Below, in pieces: positions 43,774 to 50,446 of a DNA stretch of 64,000 bases. The stretch lies in the NCBI GenBank assembly GCA_913056235.1, contig CAJXMW010000005.1, positions 124,001-188,000 of the forward strand, written 5' to 3'. A program made the position numbers and the translations under genes. This DNA is from an uncultured Fodinibius sp. Its GTDB lineage: Bacteria > Bacteroidota > Rhodothermia > Balneolales > Balneolaceae. The first letter of the stretch is position 1; each line of letters begins with the position of its first letter. The notes under the pieces are model-generated. The model was not told the origin of the DNA and made no database searches. It worked only from the letters and a program-made list of their open reading frames with translations.

Positions 43774-44276
43774 TTCAATGCGAAAGTTATTATATAGATA
43801 GTTATCACCTATCTAATATCTGCGAAACTTCACTATATAACAAATAAAAACACTTTGTCCATGTATTTTAACAGGCCTACAGGAGTTTTAAAAGGATCGA
43901 GGTTACTAAATTAATTGAGAGTCGAATGAATCCCAATATGTTTAGAACACTTTCAGAATTCCTGCGCCACCCCGGCTTGCTGGTTCCGGTCCAACGCGAT
44001 TTATCACTGACTTTCCTATTTATTTCTTATCGGCCCTTCCTCGACCTTTCCATGCCTCACCTGCTAAGCCCCACGGACGGGCATATCGAAACCGCTTCAG
44101 GGTTTTTATTTCGGGGATTCGGGGCGAACCGGCTGATCCCGAATTTTCGGGATTTACTGACAAAAAATGAACACAACAATCCACCGGTGCCCGTAGAACG
44201 AGGGACAACTTACTTAGACAGAGCCCCTCTCCCTTTATCCAATGCCAGCTACAAGGGTTCAAAAGCCCGGCCTAAT

Positions 44277-44465
44277 GAATTCTGAGTGAAGAACAAGAGG
44301 CGAACAGGAGTATTTCGTACTGGTGATTATCCATTTGATAGATCTTGAAAGTCAATTGACCATTGAAATACTCCCGCCGAAGGTCGAAACGTTATCAGAA
44401 TTCTCAGCCGGTGACTTTTTTGGATACTTTTTTCGTCACTGAAAAACAGTATCAGAAAAAAGTAT
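44277..44465. repeat. Nested-hairpin intergenic repeat, copy 1
   Basis: GAATTCTGA/TCAGAATTC outer stem; GGCG/CGCC and GGAGTATTTC/GAAATACTCC inner stems; ATACTTTTTTC/GAAAAAAGTAT second hairpin; followed by cggcactaaagtaccggtctaa at 44521. Confidence 0.7.
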
Positions 44466-44605
44466 AACGAAGTAAAAAACTAGATCCCCTCCCTTAGCCC
44501 GGCACCCGTAGGACGGGGCACGGCACTAAAGTACCGGTCTAACAAGAAAGCCCATTTTCAAACCCTGGCAACCAGGGTTATTAGTAGTAATCTATTTTAA
44601 TCATG

Positions 44606-44712
44606 CAGAATGAGAATCAGGATTGTCAGGATTAAAAGATGACTGGGATTTTTCTTTGTCACTTTGTTACTCAATCACATAGTCACCCAATCACTATTCA
44701 CCCAACAACTAC
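44606..44712. repeat. Dispersed repeat: GAATGAGAATCAGGATT..AGGATTAAAAGATGA + GTCACTTTGTTACTCAATCACATAGTCACCCAATCAC
   Basis: Matches the segments at 46543-46590 and 46934-47044. Confidence 0.65.
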
Positions 44713-44714
44713 CC

Positions 44715-46325
44715 TTAAAACGTTACCTGCCCATACACCTTAAAAAGTCCAATAAACTCCCTATCCGACACTCCCTCAATATTATTATGATTCTCCACAA
44801 CATTAATCCCCATATCCGCATCAAGCCACCAGTTGAAACGCACGTCATTAGAAACCCCAAACAAGTTGCTGCCTATCGGCTGGTAGCGCAATTCTAACGA
44901 TGGCCGTACCGTCCGCTCCACCGTACCGGCTAGGATAGCAGGAATCTGGCTCCCATCCGGTTCCGTAGAGGTACGCAAATCGCGTAGGTCCTCTGTGCCC
45001 TTCCAATACAATGTCACGCCCGGTTCCAGCATTAGTCCTTCCGCCCAACTGGGATAGAAAGTGGCTGAGGCTTTAGTTCTGATATAATCACTGAAATTAG
45101 TAGCCAGTCCCCGCTGGGCATAGGTCCACTGATCTTGGTAACGATTGGAACGGTAGGCATTGGCGCCCACCAGATCTGCTTCCAGGCCTAAGTCAAAAGT
45201 GTTGGCTACATCAGCTATGGTTATAGAACTATTGACGGTATATGTTGTAGGTATAAGATTATTATCTTCCCTCAACTTTTCACGGTCTTTATAAACGAGA
45301 TCATCAAGCATAGCTTGAGCATACAGCGTTAAATTTCCTTTTTGATACCAAACACTGCCGCCAAGAAGCAGATTACTATTATTATTCATGGGAGCATTGT
45401 GACTCTCAAAAAAAAGAAAGTGCAGTGGCAGCAGGTTACGCATCTGTATGCTTGCAGTGGGACTAAAATAGACTTCCCCCTCAATGAAACTAAGCTTCAA
45501 ATTAGGCACCGGACTCCAATCCAACCGATGTAAAAACAGGTATCGCCGATATGATCCCAACTGATACGACCGACCGTCAAAGGTACTGTCCGGACTCATG
45601 CTATCCATCTCTCCCAATATACTACTAAAAGATAGTTTGGAGTTGCCAAACTCCAGCTGAATTTGATCAAAGGATTGAGGATTGTCGGTCAGGAATGCTC
45701 CTCTCCGATCAAAGACACTCCAGTGATTATCAAACCGTCCAACATACAGATCTATGATATCTCCATTATATCCGAAATACGTTTCTTCGCTGCGCATGTA
45801 TAATCGATAAACGGTATCTAACCCATCGGGATCCACATCATAAAACCAGTCGAAGGTAATACCCGCCTGACCAATCCAGTTCTTCCACTCCAGGTAGCTC
45901 CGGAACTCTGCCTTTGGCAATATAGGCTTAGCTTCATAGGCGGGATTTATCACGTTCAGCCGCCCGCTGCTGCTCTTACGTGCCCCTCCTTCAATATATC
46001 CGCCCACACGCATGCTGTCCACATTTGTGGGACGTTCTTCAAAACGCTTGGCCAGCAGATCTACCCATCGCTGCTCTTTGTCTCCCAGCTCATTTTCATC
46101 AATACGTGATAGCGCGGCCTTGATATCCTTTTCGGCATACGGCAGATCAGTGGGATTGAGCCGCAACATATATCCCCGCTGTTGCAGGCGCTTGATATAC
46201 TCGTACTGCCAGCTGTAGGTATTCACGAAGCGGTTATCTTGCGCGTGGCTTACTACTGATCCAACAGTAAGGACTAATAGTACAGTCCCAACTGATTTCA
46301 AGAGAATCTGTTTAATATATGTCAT
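44715..46325 (-). CDS. Capsule-assembly Wzi-like outer-membrane protein
   Basis: Likely start MTYIKQILLKSVGTVLLVLTVGSVVSHAQ; beta-barrel-type sequence DWSPVPNLKLSFIEGEVYFSPTASIQMRNLLPLHFLFFESHNAP; located at a polysaccharide locus. Confidence 0.75.
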   Translation of the reverse strand: MTYIKQILLKSVGTVLLVLTVGSVVSHAQDNRFVNTYSWQYEYIKRLQQRGYMLRLNPTDLPYAEKDIKAALSRIDENELGDKEQRWVDLLAKRFEERPTNVDSMRVGGYIEGGARKSSSGRLNVINPAYEAKPILPKAEFRSYLEWKNWIGQAGITFDWFYDVDPDGLDTVYRLYMRSEETYFGYNGDIIDLYVGRFDNHWSVFDRRGAFLTDNPQSFDQIQLEFGNSKLSFSSILGEMDSMSPDSTFDGRSYQLGSYRRYLFLHRLDWSPVPNLKLSFIEGEVYFSPTASIQMRNLLPLHFLFFESHNAPMNNNSNLLLGGSVWYQKGNLTLYAQAMLDDLVYKDREKLREDNNLIPTTYTVNSSITIADVANTFDLGLEADLVGANAYRSNRYQDQWTYAQRGLATNFSDYIRTKASATFYPSWAEGLMLEPGVTLYWKGTEDLRDLRTSTEPDGSQIPAILAGTVERTVRPSLELRYQPIGSNLFGVSNDVRFNWWLDADMGINVVENHNNIEGVSDREFIGLFKVYGQVTF

Positions 46326-46542
46326 CCTGATAGACGATATCGTTGTAGTTTCTTGGGCGAAAAGATCACTTTTTTTCAATTGAATATCATCTATGAATTT
46401 GATCTATCCACTACTACGTTAAAACTTCGTAGAGCAGGCTAACTCCCTCTTTTTTTAGAGGGAAATTTGCTTGCCAACTTCGCGGTTTTAATCAATCCGG
46501 CATAATGAATTCTGAGTGAAGAATCACATCGATTTCAATTTT

Positions 46543-46590
46543 TAGAATAAGAATCAGGATTTATAGGATTATAAGATGATCAGGATATTT
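46543..46590. repeat. Dispersed repeat GAATAAGAATCAGGATTTATAGGATTATAAGATGATCAGGAT
   Basis: By-eye match to 44606-44650 and 46934-46972. Confidence 0.65.
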
Positions 46591-46666
46591 TGACCCACCC
46601 TAAATCCCTCCCATCAATGTGTGTAGGGAGGGACTTTCTTGGACTAGCTTCACTTTTGGGGACCTT

Positions 46667-46838
46667 GGATTCTGAATCGAGTGAAGCCGGGTGAAAAGGA
46701 TAATTCCATACCGGCTCTTAGTGTCGACATATTTCAAAAGGAGAAAGACCATTGGAATTATCCAACCCGACGAACGGAGTGACTTCAGAATCCCATGTCT
46801 TGATTTTTTAGTACCTTTTTTATCAAGAAAAAAGGTAC
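46667..46838. repeat. Nested-hairpin intergenic repeat, copy 2
   Basis: GGATTCTGAA/TTCAGAATCC; CGGGT/ACCCG; GGATAATTCCA/TGGAATTATCC; GTACCTTTTTT/AAAAAAGGTAC; followed by cattaagataccggtctaat. Confidence 0.75.
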
Positions 46839-46933
46839 TCCCAATAACCCGTCATTAAGATACCGGTCTAATTATGAATAACCAGAAACCCTATAAATAG
46901 GGTTCTTAACAGGCCACCATTCCAATTCCCCCA

Positions 46934-47044
46934 AATAAGAATTAGGATTCACAGGATTACAAGATGAGCAGGATTCAGCCTTGTTCCTTTGCAACTTTGT
47001 CACTCAGTAACCCAATCTCTTAATAACCCAATCACCTAATAACG
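46934..47044. repeat. Dispersed repeat AATAAGAATTAGGATTCACAGGATTACAAGATGAGCAGGATT + GTCACTCAGTAACCCAATC...CCCAATCACCTAATAACGA
   Basis: Same two-module arrangement as 44606-44712; abuts the stop of the WecA-like gene. Confidence 0.65.
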
Positions 47045-47047
47045 ATT

Positions 47048-48277
47048 CTAAACTGCTAGCTCCTCTACCTTCTCCTTCTTATCCACATCCTCTTCAGAAA
47101 AAGAGCTGCCATTCGAAAAGCCATTCCCATTTTTAACTACTGTCTTGGGCGGGGTACCAAACTTCATTTCCAACACCTGAATCTCCCGCTTCGAAGGCGT
47201 ATCCACACCCAACTTGTCAAGGGCCTTGCGTTTAAGTCGTACCGTGGGAAAAAGAATGACCGATGCTCCTAACACTGTGGCAAATAACAGGTTGACCTCC
47301 AGGCCGGACAAGAGCAGTGTTATTCCAACGATCGTTAGATTGAACCCAAAGATCAGAAAACAGCTAGTACGATGAGAAAAACCCATATCAATCAGCTGAT
47401 GGTGCACATGCAGGCGATCCGCGGAAAAGGGCGACTTTTGCTCGCGGACAGCCCTGATCAGAAACACGCGCAGCGTATCATACAGGGGGACAATCAATAC
47501 CGAAAGCACCAGCACGGGCACCGCATTCTTGAAGGGCACGGCCGCTTTAGCAATTCCGGCATTCACGAACGAGACGGCAAAAAATGCCAGCAGGTGCCCC
47601 ACAACCTGAGATCCCGTATCACCCATAAAGATCGAGGCCGGCTGAAAGTTATACCGCATAAAGGCAGCAAGGGCGCCAACTAATGTTAAAGCCAATACTG
47701 CATGCGACATCATCCCGGCCTCCCAGAACCACCAGGCAAAAAAGGAAGAAGCAATGATACCGATTCCCCCAGCCAGGCCGTCAATACCATCAATAAGGTT
47801 ATAGGCATTAATCACAACCACCATAGTAAAGAATGTAAGACCAATCCCTGCCCAACTAGGGATTTCATGAACCCCAAACATCCCTCCCATATCGGTGATA
47901 ACCATGTTGCCACCAGCCATGACCGCAACAATAGCCGTTATCTGTAGCAGTAATTTCTTGTTGGGGGCTATAACGAGCAAATCATCCTTGATCCCCGAAA
48001 ACAGCAAAATAATCAGCCCGGATGACAGGTACGGCAACCAGGGCTGGAAGGCATAGCCACTCAGCAAGAAACTGATGATAACCGCCGCAAAAATGCCTAC
48101 ACCACCCAAATTGGGAATAGCACTAACGTGCAGCTTACGATCGTCGGTGGGATCATCAAACAGATGTTTTAAATGTGATACATCGATGATAACTGGTATC
48201 ACCAGATATGCCACGACAAACGCCCCGACAGCCACCAGTAAAGGCAGCAAACTTGCAAATGCAATTTCCGTCTCCAT
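47048..48277 (-). CDS. wecA: MraY/WecA-family polyprenyl-phosphate sugar-1-phosphate transferase
   Basis: 409 aa, polytopic; HVSAIPNLGGVGIFAA, NAYNLIDGIDGLAGGIG, FMGDTGSQVVGHLLAF, HVHHQLIDMGFSHR. Confidence 0.93.
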   Translation of the reverse strand: METEIAFASLLPLLVAVGAFVVAYLVIPVIIDVSHLKHLFDDPTDDRKLHVSAIPNLGGVGIFAAVIISFLLSGYAFQPWLPYLSSGLIILLFSGIKDDLLVIAPNKKLLLQITAIVAVMAGGNMVITDMGGMFGVHEIPSWAGIGLTFFTMVVVINAYNLIDGIDGLAGGIGIIASSFFAWWFWEAGMMSHAVLALTLVGALAAFMRYNFQPASIFMGDTGSQVVGHLLAFFAVSFVNAGIAKAAVPFKNAVPVLVLSVLIVPLYDTLRVFLIRAVREQKSPFSADRLHVHHQLIDMGFSHRTSCFLIFGFNLTIVGITLLLSGLEVNLLFATVLGASVILFPTVRLKRKALDKLGVDTPSKREIQVLEMKFGTPPKTVVKNGNGFSNGSSFSEEDVDKKEKVEELAV

Positions 48278-48629
48278 ATTTGACCCTGATTACTGAAACT
48301 AGCCCGTTCACTCCTGATTTTTATGTAGGTGAATAGACTACAAAAAAACACTCAGAAGATAAATCTCATAAACATTCATTAACTATTTCTAATGTTTATT
48401 GAGATGACTAATACTGCTATCCATATTCGAAGGAATAGCTCCACCCAGAGAGGGCACTGAATAGTAGAGTATTTCGGTTGGGGCGGGGCTCCGAATTCTA
48501 AGGAATAGTCTATTGATTCAATAGTAAGAAAAACGTAGCCAAAACTGATCTTGGAAGGGCCAGCACTGGTAATATGGAATCTACCAGTAAACCTCAACAT
48601 TCAAAACTCCTCATTCAACATTCTAAAAA

Positions 48630-49973
48630 CTACGCCTGCCAAATATGAATATTGGACTTACGCTCAATGCCATTCATCTCGTGGCGGCTGTCCACAATAC
48701 AATCCGACCATTCGGCCAGCTCTTGATAATCGACATCAGAGTGATTAGTTGAAATAATGACTGCATCATGTTCACTAACCACTTCTTCGTTCCACCCGAT
48801 ACTTTCTTTGCCCGTCCACTCAGGGTGCTCTCTCGTAGGTTTAATGGCCGGTATATGCGGATCATAAAACGATACCTCCGCACCATACTCCTCAAGCAGA
48901 TCCATGATCTTAAAAGACGGCGACTCTCGCTGGTCATCCACATCCGGTTTATAAGCCAGCCCAATAACTAACACCTTGCTCCCGTTCATCGGTTTCTGAT
49001 GGGCGTTCAGTGCTTTCAGGGTCTGATCAACTACATACTGTGGCATGGAGGTATTAATCTCTCCGGCCAGCTCAATAAAGCGCGTATTTTCTTCGTACTC
49101 CCGAGCTTTCCATGTCAGGTAAAACGGATCAATGGGAATACAGTGCCCACCCAGGCCGGGACCGGGGACAAATTTCATAAAACCAAAGGGTTTGGTATCG
49201 GCGGCATCTAAAACCTCGTGGACATTAATGTCCATCTCCTGGAAGACTACTTTAAGTTCATTAACCAAAGCGATGTTTACGGCTCGGAACACATTCTCAG
49301 TTATTTTCACTGCCTCGGCGGTCTTTGTATCGGAAACCGGTACGGTTTCCACAATAGCCGTATCATACATGGCGCAAGCCAGCTCAATGCCCTCTTGGGT
49401 ATGTCCGCCCACCACTTTGGGGATACTGCCGGTATCGAAGTCGATATTGCCGGGATCTTCGCGCTCAGGGCTGTAGGCCACATAAAAATCCTCTCCGGCT
49501 GTCAAATTGGACTTCGATTCCAGAATTGGGATAATCAGTTCTTCGGTCGTACCTGGATAAGTGGTCGATTCAAGAATCACCAGCTGACCTTCCCGCAGGT
49601 TTTCCCCAATTGTCATGGCCGTTTTCTCTACATACTGCATATCCGGCTCGCGGTGGTGGTCCAGCGGCGTGGGCACGCACATTAAAATAGCATCAGCCTC
49701 ACTCAAGTGACTAAAATCTGCGGTAGCATCGCAGCGATCGCTTCCTGCCAGTCGCTTCATCATCTTTTCACCCAGATGCTTGATATAGGGACGTCCCTCA
49801 TGCAGACAATCGATCTTCTCCTGATCGATATCGTAGCCAATCACCGGCATGCCCGCATCGTGGAAGGTCCACATCAGCGGCAGGCCGACGTAACCAAGAC
49901 CTACAATGCCTATGGTGTACTCTTTGTCTTCTATTTTCTGAAGTAAATCTTCTGCAACTAACTCTTGAGACAT
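48630..49973 (-). CDS. Nucleotide-sugar (UDP-HexNAc) dehydrogenase, WecC/WbpA family
   Basis: 447 aa; GIVGLGYVGLPLMWTFHDAG, VPGPGLGGHCIPIDPFYLTWKA, GLAYKPDVDDQRESPSFKIMDLL. Confidence 0.93.
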   Translation of the reverse strand: MSQELVAEDLLQKIEDKEYTIGIVGLGYVGLPLMWTFHDAGMPVIGYDIDQEKIDCLHEGRPYIKHLGEKMMKRLAGSDRCDATADFSHLSEADAILMCVPTPLDHHREPDMQYVEKTAMTIGENLREGQLVILESTTYPGTTEELIIPILESKSNLTAGEDFYVAYSPEREDPGNIDFDTGSIPKVVGGHTQEGIELACAMYDTAIVETVPVSDTKTAEAVKITENVFRAVNIALVNELKVVFQEMDINVHEVLDAADTKPFGFMKFVPGPGLGGHCIPIDPFYLTWKAREYEENTRFIELAGEINTSMPQYVVDQTLKALNAHQKPMNGSKVLVIGLAYKPDVDDQRESPSFKIMDLLEEYGAEVSFYDPHIPAIKPTREHPEWTGKESIGWNEEVVSEHDAVIISTNHSDVDYQELAEWSDCIVDSRHEMNGIERKSNIHIWQA

Positions 49974-50090
49974 GTTCTCCTTTTTCTAAAACCCAATTAT
50001 TTTGAAGGCAGAATATAGGGCGATTAAAGTTTTAAGTAAAAAGTTTAAAGTGGTAATAAATCACCCGGTCGCTTTGTTAAACATAACTAT

Positions 50091-50176
50091 GTCATCTCGA
50101 CCGTCAGGGAGAGATCTTTTTTGTTGGTGTGATAAAATACAGATTTCTCATTGCGTTTCACTCCAATCGAAATGAC
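50091..50176. repeat. Palindromic intergenic element
   Basis: GTCATCTCGAccgtcagggaGAGATCT...AGATTTCTCattgcgtttcactccaaTCGAAATGAC; imperfect inverted ends. Confidence 0.6.
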
Positions 50177-50275
50177 AAGCAAGCCCGGCACTAAAGTACC
50201 GGTCTAATAATAAAATCTTACGGTAAACCCTACTAAAGCAGGATTTGCAATTTCACGGTTTTAAGAAAGACATAA

Positions 50276-50446
50276 GAATTCTGAGCGAAGTCCGGAGGGA
50301 GAACAGGATAATTTTATACCGGTGTCAGTTTCAAAAGTAGTTACTAATGTGAAGGACCATTAAAATTATCCCTCCCGCAGGATGTAGCGTATTCAGAATT
50401 CTAAGTCTTGATCTTTTACCACCTTTTGTATCAAGACAAAAGGTGG
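50276..50446. repeat. Nested-hairpin intergenic repeat, copy 3
   Basis: GAATTCTGA/TCAGAATTC; GGGAG/CTCCC; GGATAATTTTA/TAAAATTATCC; CCACCTTTTG/CAAAAGGTGG; preceded by cggcactaaagtaccggtctaa at 50186. Confidence 0.75.

Follow-up and report, generated by a model that had tools for sequence, protein, structure and literature searches.

A fold-conserving, probably mobile intergenic element of Fodinibius with a pseudoknot-like end module common to elements across Bacteroidota

The window analysed here, a 64,000-nucleotide stretch of the genome of an uncultured Fodinibius sp. (assembly GCA_913056235.1, contig CAJXMW010000005.1, positions 124,001 to 188,000 of the forward strand), carries three copies of a non-coding repeat element that keeps its fold while its sequence varies. 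The element, roughly 180–200 bases in size and scattered between genes, is probably mobile and under selection for its fold; no named family was found for it. It consists of a core hairpin and an adjoining end module of pseudoknot-like form, the latter common to elements across Bacteroidota, with exchange of cores. We consider it probable that this repeat unit of about 180–200 bp is being dispersed, or was dispersed in the past, through genomes in the form of a folded single strand.

A preliminary description of the window, made from its letters alone, had placed three copies with one architecture at 44277–44465, 46667–46838 and 50276–50446, and both the copies and their stems were confirmed at those coordinates (Table 1). 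By BLAST, copies 2 and 3 are alike (E = 4e-21), and the sequence likeness of copy 1 is confined to the arms. The family proved larger than the three copies it was thought to comprise. The covariance-model scan proposed in the same description was run with a model of the 130-nt core, trained on five copies (the three in the window and two from a first DNA search of the genome). In the genome itself it recovered 12 strong copies at 87–129 bits, the next matches scoring about 20 bits, and a truncated end lies in the window in addition. Seven of these 12 were not in the training set; they score 87–121 bits, with significance values of 1e-19 to 1e-29. Among 60 relatives, 14 gave matches at E below 0.001, amounting to at least about 100 further copies, nearly all in Fodinibius/Aliifodinibius. 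Nine of the 11 other members of this genus carry the element, with at least 1–23 copies each, these counts being lower bounds as 56–150 of several hundred candidates were scored per search. A few other genera of the family also possess it, and in the same search of 60 relatives no match was obtained in other families of the order. Plasmid and phage collections yielded matches to the end module alone, in three Parabacteroides records.

The earlier proposal that structure is selected is supported by the untrained copies and by compensatory change far above shuffled and slid controls. Across 128 distinct copies, standard pairs occupy 90.8% of pair cells, vs 69.9% in shuffles and 35–49% with slid partners. 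Changes on both sides of a pair were counted in 847 cells, vs 235 ± 23 in shuffles, and they affect 33 of the 34 pairs; one pair of the inner stem, for example, is AU in 64 copies, UA in 29, CG in 22 and GC in 5. The compensatory change is thus strong, measured on an alignment fitted to the model and against shuffle controls that do not model descent. At the end of the inner stem lies a near-invariant internal loop, AUGGUC/ACCGGUA on the strand matched by the model and GUACCGGU...GACCAU on the + strand of the window. Some copies have an extra hairpin (ACCGGTACTACTACGCCAAGG...GTAGCACAGGTA) inserted at this internal loop, and others have small hairpins in place of parts of the end module (loci L085, L089, L042 and L050).

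In most copies the end hairpin adjoins the core at a fixed position. The second hairpin of the preliminary description is present as described; it is not a separate structure, belonging instead to the unit, where its loop pairs with the adjoining stretch. The loop is complementary to a segment across an A- or U-rich linker; on the + strand this segment lies immediately 5′ of the U tract. This complementarity is preserved through switches of sequence type (CCUUGAU/AUCAAGG, GUGAC/GUCAC, GUGAG/CUCAC and GUCAA/UUGAC). In the genus set, at least 5 bp can form between the loop and the flank of one and the same copy in 61% of cases, compared with 28% for swapped combinations. A phylum-wide search used a pattern with one base left free on each side (C/T and A/G) and was scored on 88 distinct Bacteroidota sequences. 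At the free positions, loop and flank are complementary in 86 of the 88 (T-A in 58, C-G in 28, with 2 mismatches), and the pair closing the loop co-varies in 86 of the 88 as well. Searched for in reverse, the pattern matched nowhere in 300 genomes. Different cores accompany the end module in Parabacteroides, Mucilaginibacter, Mesonia, Chryseobacterium and others. At one locus of Mesonia hippocampi (L190), five end modules in the same orientation lie within 8 kb among nucleotide-sugar dehydrogenase/dehydratase genes, with other repeats between them.

The pattern of wobble pairs favours the + strand of the window as the folded strand. Read on the model strand, which is the − strand of the window, the end hairpin contains more A-C mismatches than G-T pairs, both in the genus set (70:37) and in the phylum set (44:7). 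The same holds for the core (135:63, leaving out two conserved U-G positions beside the internal loop). Since A-C mismatches on the model strand correspond to G-U wobbles on the opposite one, these ratios point to the + strand. Folding of the core is also more stable in the + orientation in 73 of 95 copies.

Several observations bear on mobility. The copy at C2:339016 of this genome has no counterpart in seven relatives, in which the gap between the same pair of genes measures about 60–180 bp compared with about 330 bp, and a copy common to genomes G005 and G009 is missing at that site in other species. Inverted pairs of copies are frequent; G003, G004 and G010, for example, have one at the site of window copy 3. 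In other Bacteroidota, the near-identical units of a pair have their 5′ boundary in common at the foot of the end hairpin (positions −4 to −8); the DNA outside it is unrelated, and the units extend 167–250 bases from that boundary. Dispersal, presence or absence at sites between species and discrete unit ends support the view, already offered in the preliminary description, of a hairpin-type mobile repeat. The units are intergenic, and 145 flanking proteins are spread over 178 Pfam families, with no more than four hits per family. The idea of a recurrent partner gene next to the end module was rejected at the phylum level, where the largest clusters of neighbours are ordinary nucleotide-sugar and sigma-factor genes.

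Unrelated neighbouring genes, presence or absence at sites, inverted pairs and discrete unit starts together indicate a non-coding repeat of the mobile type rather than a module of the polysaccharide locus. The alternative of a recombination module shuffling that locus, also raised earlier, is not supported, given the diversity of the flanking families and the fact that 9 of the 12 copies of this genome lie outside the window. As the flanking families are so diverse, the polysaccharide context of the window is incidental, though nucleotide-sugar genes recur. An antitermination RNA of polysaccharide operons (EAR/ops-like) was rejected as a candidate on the same two grounds, the element not being confined to such operons.

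In the folded form that we propose, the + strand would comprise, in order, an extended, imperfectly paired hairpin that contains an inner stem and an internal loop, a U-rich stretch and a terminal hairpin, and this form may be either DNA or RNA. We hypothesize that the structured end is recognised by a trans-acting enzyme, either a reverse transcriptase or a transposase acting on single-strand DNA, and that the unit may be tolerated at the 3′ ends of genes, where it would become part of untranslated RNA.

A number of points weigh against spread as a folded single strand of this kind. With all six loop bases paired, no linker would be left on the + strand; the loop pairing and the hairpin may therefore alternate, or the pairing may occur between copies. 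One recurrent pair supplies much of the wobble excess in the phylum set, and a conserved pair of the internal loop points to the opposite strand. Target duplication is not evident, intergenic DNA between species being too diverged to define one. Certain copies occupy a corresponding site in two or three species and retain an intact structure, which a host function would also explain. Finally, no moving enzyme was identified, and the distribution of genes for RAYT, TnpB and reverse transcriptase does not follow that of the element. TnpB (PF07282) was found in 0 of 12 genus genomes, the positive control being detected in 6 genomes. IscB (RRXRR) gave no match in the genus and none in the control genomes either. 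Reverse transcriptases are patchy, with none in G002, G005, G006 and G010, all of which carry the element. Genes for four-helix-bundle proteins (PF05635, of the 23S intervening-sequence type) occur in 1–15 copies per genome (G000–G011), roughly tracking element counts; this protein was rejected as a partner because the element is absent from the 20 best PF05635 loci.

The main rival reading, which we regard as possible but unlikely, is that of a structured RNA used by the host in 3′ untranslated regions: the transcribed + strand would fold, its U-rich stretch packing against the A-rich hairpin strand in a triple helix, and the element would terminate or protect transcripts or serve as a cleavage site for an RNase, with its dispersal secondary. 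A U-rich stretch combined with an A-rich 3′ strand is the layout of known triple-helix pseudoknots, which counts in favour of such an RNA, as does the preference of the wobble pairs for one strand. In the phylum set (neighbour orientations on the model strand: ++ 24, −− 44, +− 24, −+ 11), the folded strand is co-oriented with the gene 5′ of it 68 times out of 103 (p = 0.0015), and there are more convergent than divergent contexts (24:11). In G005 and G009, moreover, the element fills an intergenic space that in other species holds short hairpins of a different kind. The genus set, however, shows no significant strand preference relative to genes (45 of 82; ++ 29, −− 27, +− 18, −+ 8). The element is also missing at orthologous sites in most of the relatives tested, and its neighbours share no function. 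An intrinsic-terminator scan for a short GC stem followed by a U run called none of the elements; it covered only this simple form, long interrupted stems falling outside it.

A bolder reading can also be put forward. Mobile structured RNAs, or single-strand DNAs, might form a superfamily extending across Bacteroidota, with a common 3′-terminal triple-helix pseudoknot and exchangeable hairpin cores, and might be copied by an enzyme recognising that end, for example a reverse transcriptase acting on a 3′ pseudoknot. We hold this to be decidedly unlikely as a whole.

Movement by RAYT, a tyrosine transposase of the Y1 type, as in elements of the repetitive extragenic palindrome (REP) or REPIN kind, appears improbable. 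RAYT-like genes are indeed present in four element-rich genomes (G000, G003, G004 and G008), and one RAYT gene of the genome studied here lies less than 1 kb from a copy. Against this, the RAYT genes at L315, L316, L324, L326 and L328 are each flanked by distinct short palindromes of their own, unlike the element; RAYT (PF01797) was undetected in G002, G005, G007 and G009, all element carriers; and the element model gave no match in 21 Y1 loci. The REP-type origin suggested for checking in the preliminary description was rejected on these grounds.

Integron-like recombination, with attC-like folds shuffling gene cassettes, those of the polysaccharide locus included, is largely refuted and seems very improbable to us. 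Full-length integron integrases (TIGR02249 above the cut-off) are encoded in 11 of the 12 Fodinibius/Aliifodinibius genomes, for example at G000:C6:301-1239 (L404); attC sites likewise conserve fold over sequence; and arrays in the same orientation at gene-size spacing occur in Mesonia and Chryseobacterium. The candidate attC sites found beside several integrases, however, are about 115–130 bp long, carry RYYYAAC/GTTRRRY core sites and do not match the element model. The core-site pair itself (R″ RYYYAAC, R′ GTTRRRY) is present in 0 of 95 elements, compared with 5 of 475 random segments, and the occurrence of both strand orientations and of inverted pairs is unlike cassettes. Hairpins often occur between genes, and copy 1 has little sequence in common with copy 2, but chance inverted repeats, or sequence-level duplicates free of structural selection, are refuted by the scores of the untrained copies, the covariation above both controls and the loop-to-flank matches.

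In Rfam no family reaches the threshold, HEARO included, and a literature search for the sequence and for combined terms returned no description of the element. Among known systems the nearest kind is that of miniature inverted-repeat transposable elements (MITEs). Like bacterial MITEs such as ERIC, Correia and BrickBuilt of P. gingivalis (PMC4596501, PMC10969869), the element is short, intergenic, palindromic, non-coding and dispersed, varies in copy number, is present or absent at given sites and has no transposase gene inside the unit. Its conservation of fold over sequence and its pseudoknot-like end set it apart: MITEs are recognised by conserved terminal repeats and sequence, whereas here sequence conservation is poor and the fold co-varies. 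The ends of the element are palindromic, one of them being pseudoknot-like, and they differ from the BrickBuilt ends (GAGACCTTTGCA). No target duplication was evident in the diverged flanks, nor was any parent insertion sequence seen, the families searched for a parent being Y1, TnpB, IscB and reverse transcriptase.

With REP/REPIN sequences the element has in common intergenic palindromes, inverted pairs and one folded strand, but its length of about 190 nt exceeds that of a short hairpin, and it is not linked to RAYT genes here. It resembles integron attC sites in keeping a single-strand fold as sequence varies, in a genus that possesses integron integrases, and is unlike them in having neither R″/R′ core sites nor a cassette organisation. 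The guide RNAs of HEARO/IscB and TnpB are likewise dispersed structured units with a pseudoknot and with copies that lack the gene; the element differs from them in having no Rfam match, and in a genus where no TnpB and no IscB match was found (for IscB, a search also blank in its control genomes). The rAID defence-cluster motifs of Bacteroidales (PMC12247911), compared by description only, are similar as conserved intergenic motifs of Bacteroidota; judged in the same way, the element differs in needing no co-oriented array of short genes with a recombinase.

A dispersed element that keeps its fold rather than its sequence escapes ordinary repeat finders, and no Rfam model covers this one. If an enzyme does recognise the end module, genomes of Bacteroidota, those of gut and oral species included, would carry a trans-mobilised element; if its action is at the RNA level, 3′ untranslated regions would contain a widespread component that has gone unrecognised.

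Table 1. Copies of the element in the window and their parts (position 1 is the first letter of the stretch)
Feature	Position	Strand	Remarks
Copy 1, whole unit	44267..44465	+ (strand favoured by wobble pairs)	123 bits, model matching the complementary strand
Copy 1, core hairpin	44277..44403	+	outer stem 44277-44285/44395-44403; middle stem GGCG/CGCC; inner stem with conserved internal loop
Copy 1, end module	44407..44465	+	GCCGGTGAC, U tract, hairpin 44424-44434/44455-44465; loop GTCAC pairs with GTGAC
Copy 2, whole unit	46661..46838	+	119.6 bits
Copy 2, core hairpin	46667..46793	+	outer stem GGATTCTGAA/TTCAGAATCC
Copy 2, end module	46797..46838	+	TCTTGAT pairs with loop ATCAAGA; hairpin 46811-46821/46828-46838
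Copy 3, whole unit	50267..50446	+	126 bits; between UDP-GlcNAc 2-epimerase and nucleotide-sugar dehydrogenase genes
Copy 3, core hairpin	50276..50401	+	
Copy 3, end module	50405..50446	+	GTCTTGAT pairs with loop ATCAAGAC (8 bp); hairpin 50419-50428/50437-50446
Truncated left end of a further copy	46497..46523	+	CCGGCATAATGAATTCTGAGTGAAGAA, 96% to copy 1

Within the window, the copies lie in the context of genes for a Wzi-like protein, GT4, nucleotide-sugar dehydrogenase and UDP-GlcNAc epimerase. The conserved unpaired word that had been counted as part of the family does not belong to it, being found, among all loci examined, only beside the three window copies. This word, CGGCACTAAAGTACCGGTCTAA, occurs at 44521–44542, 46850–46871 and 50186–50207 as a separate local repeat with a potential 7-bp hairpin on the − strand. 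Elements of the window are also adjoined, at 44607–44653, 46544–46590 and 46932–46978, by another intergenic repeat (AGAATCAGGATT..CAGGATTA.AAGATGA), which is rare in the other loci examined.

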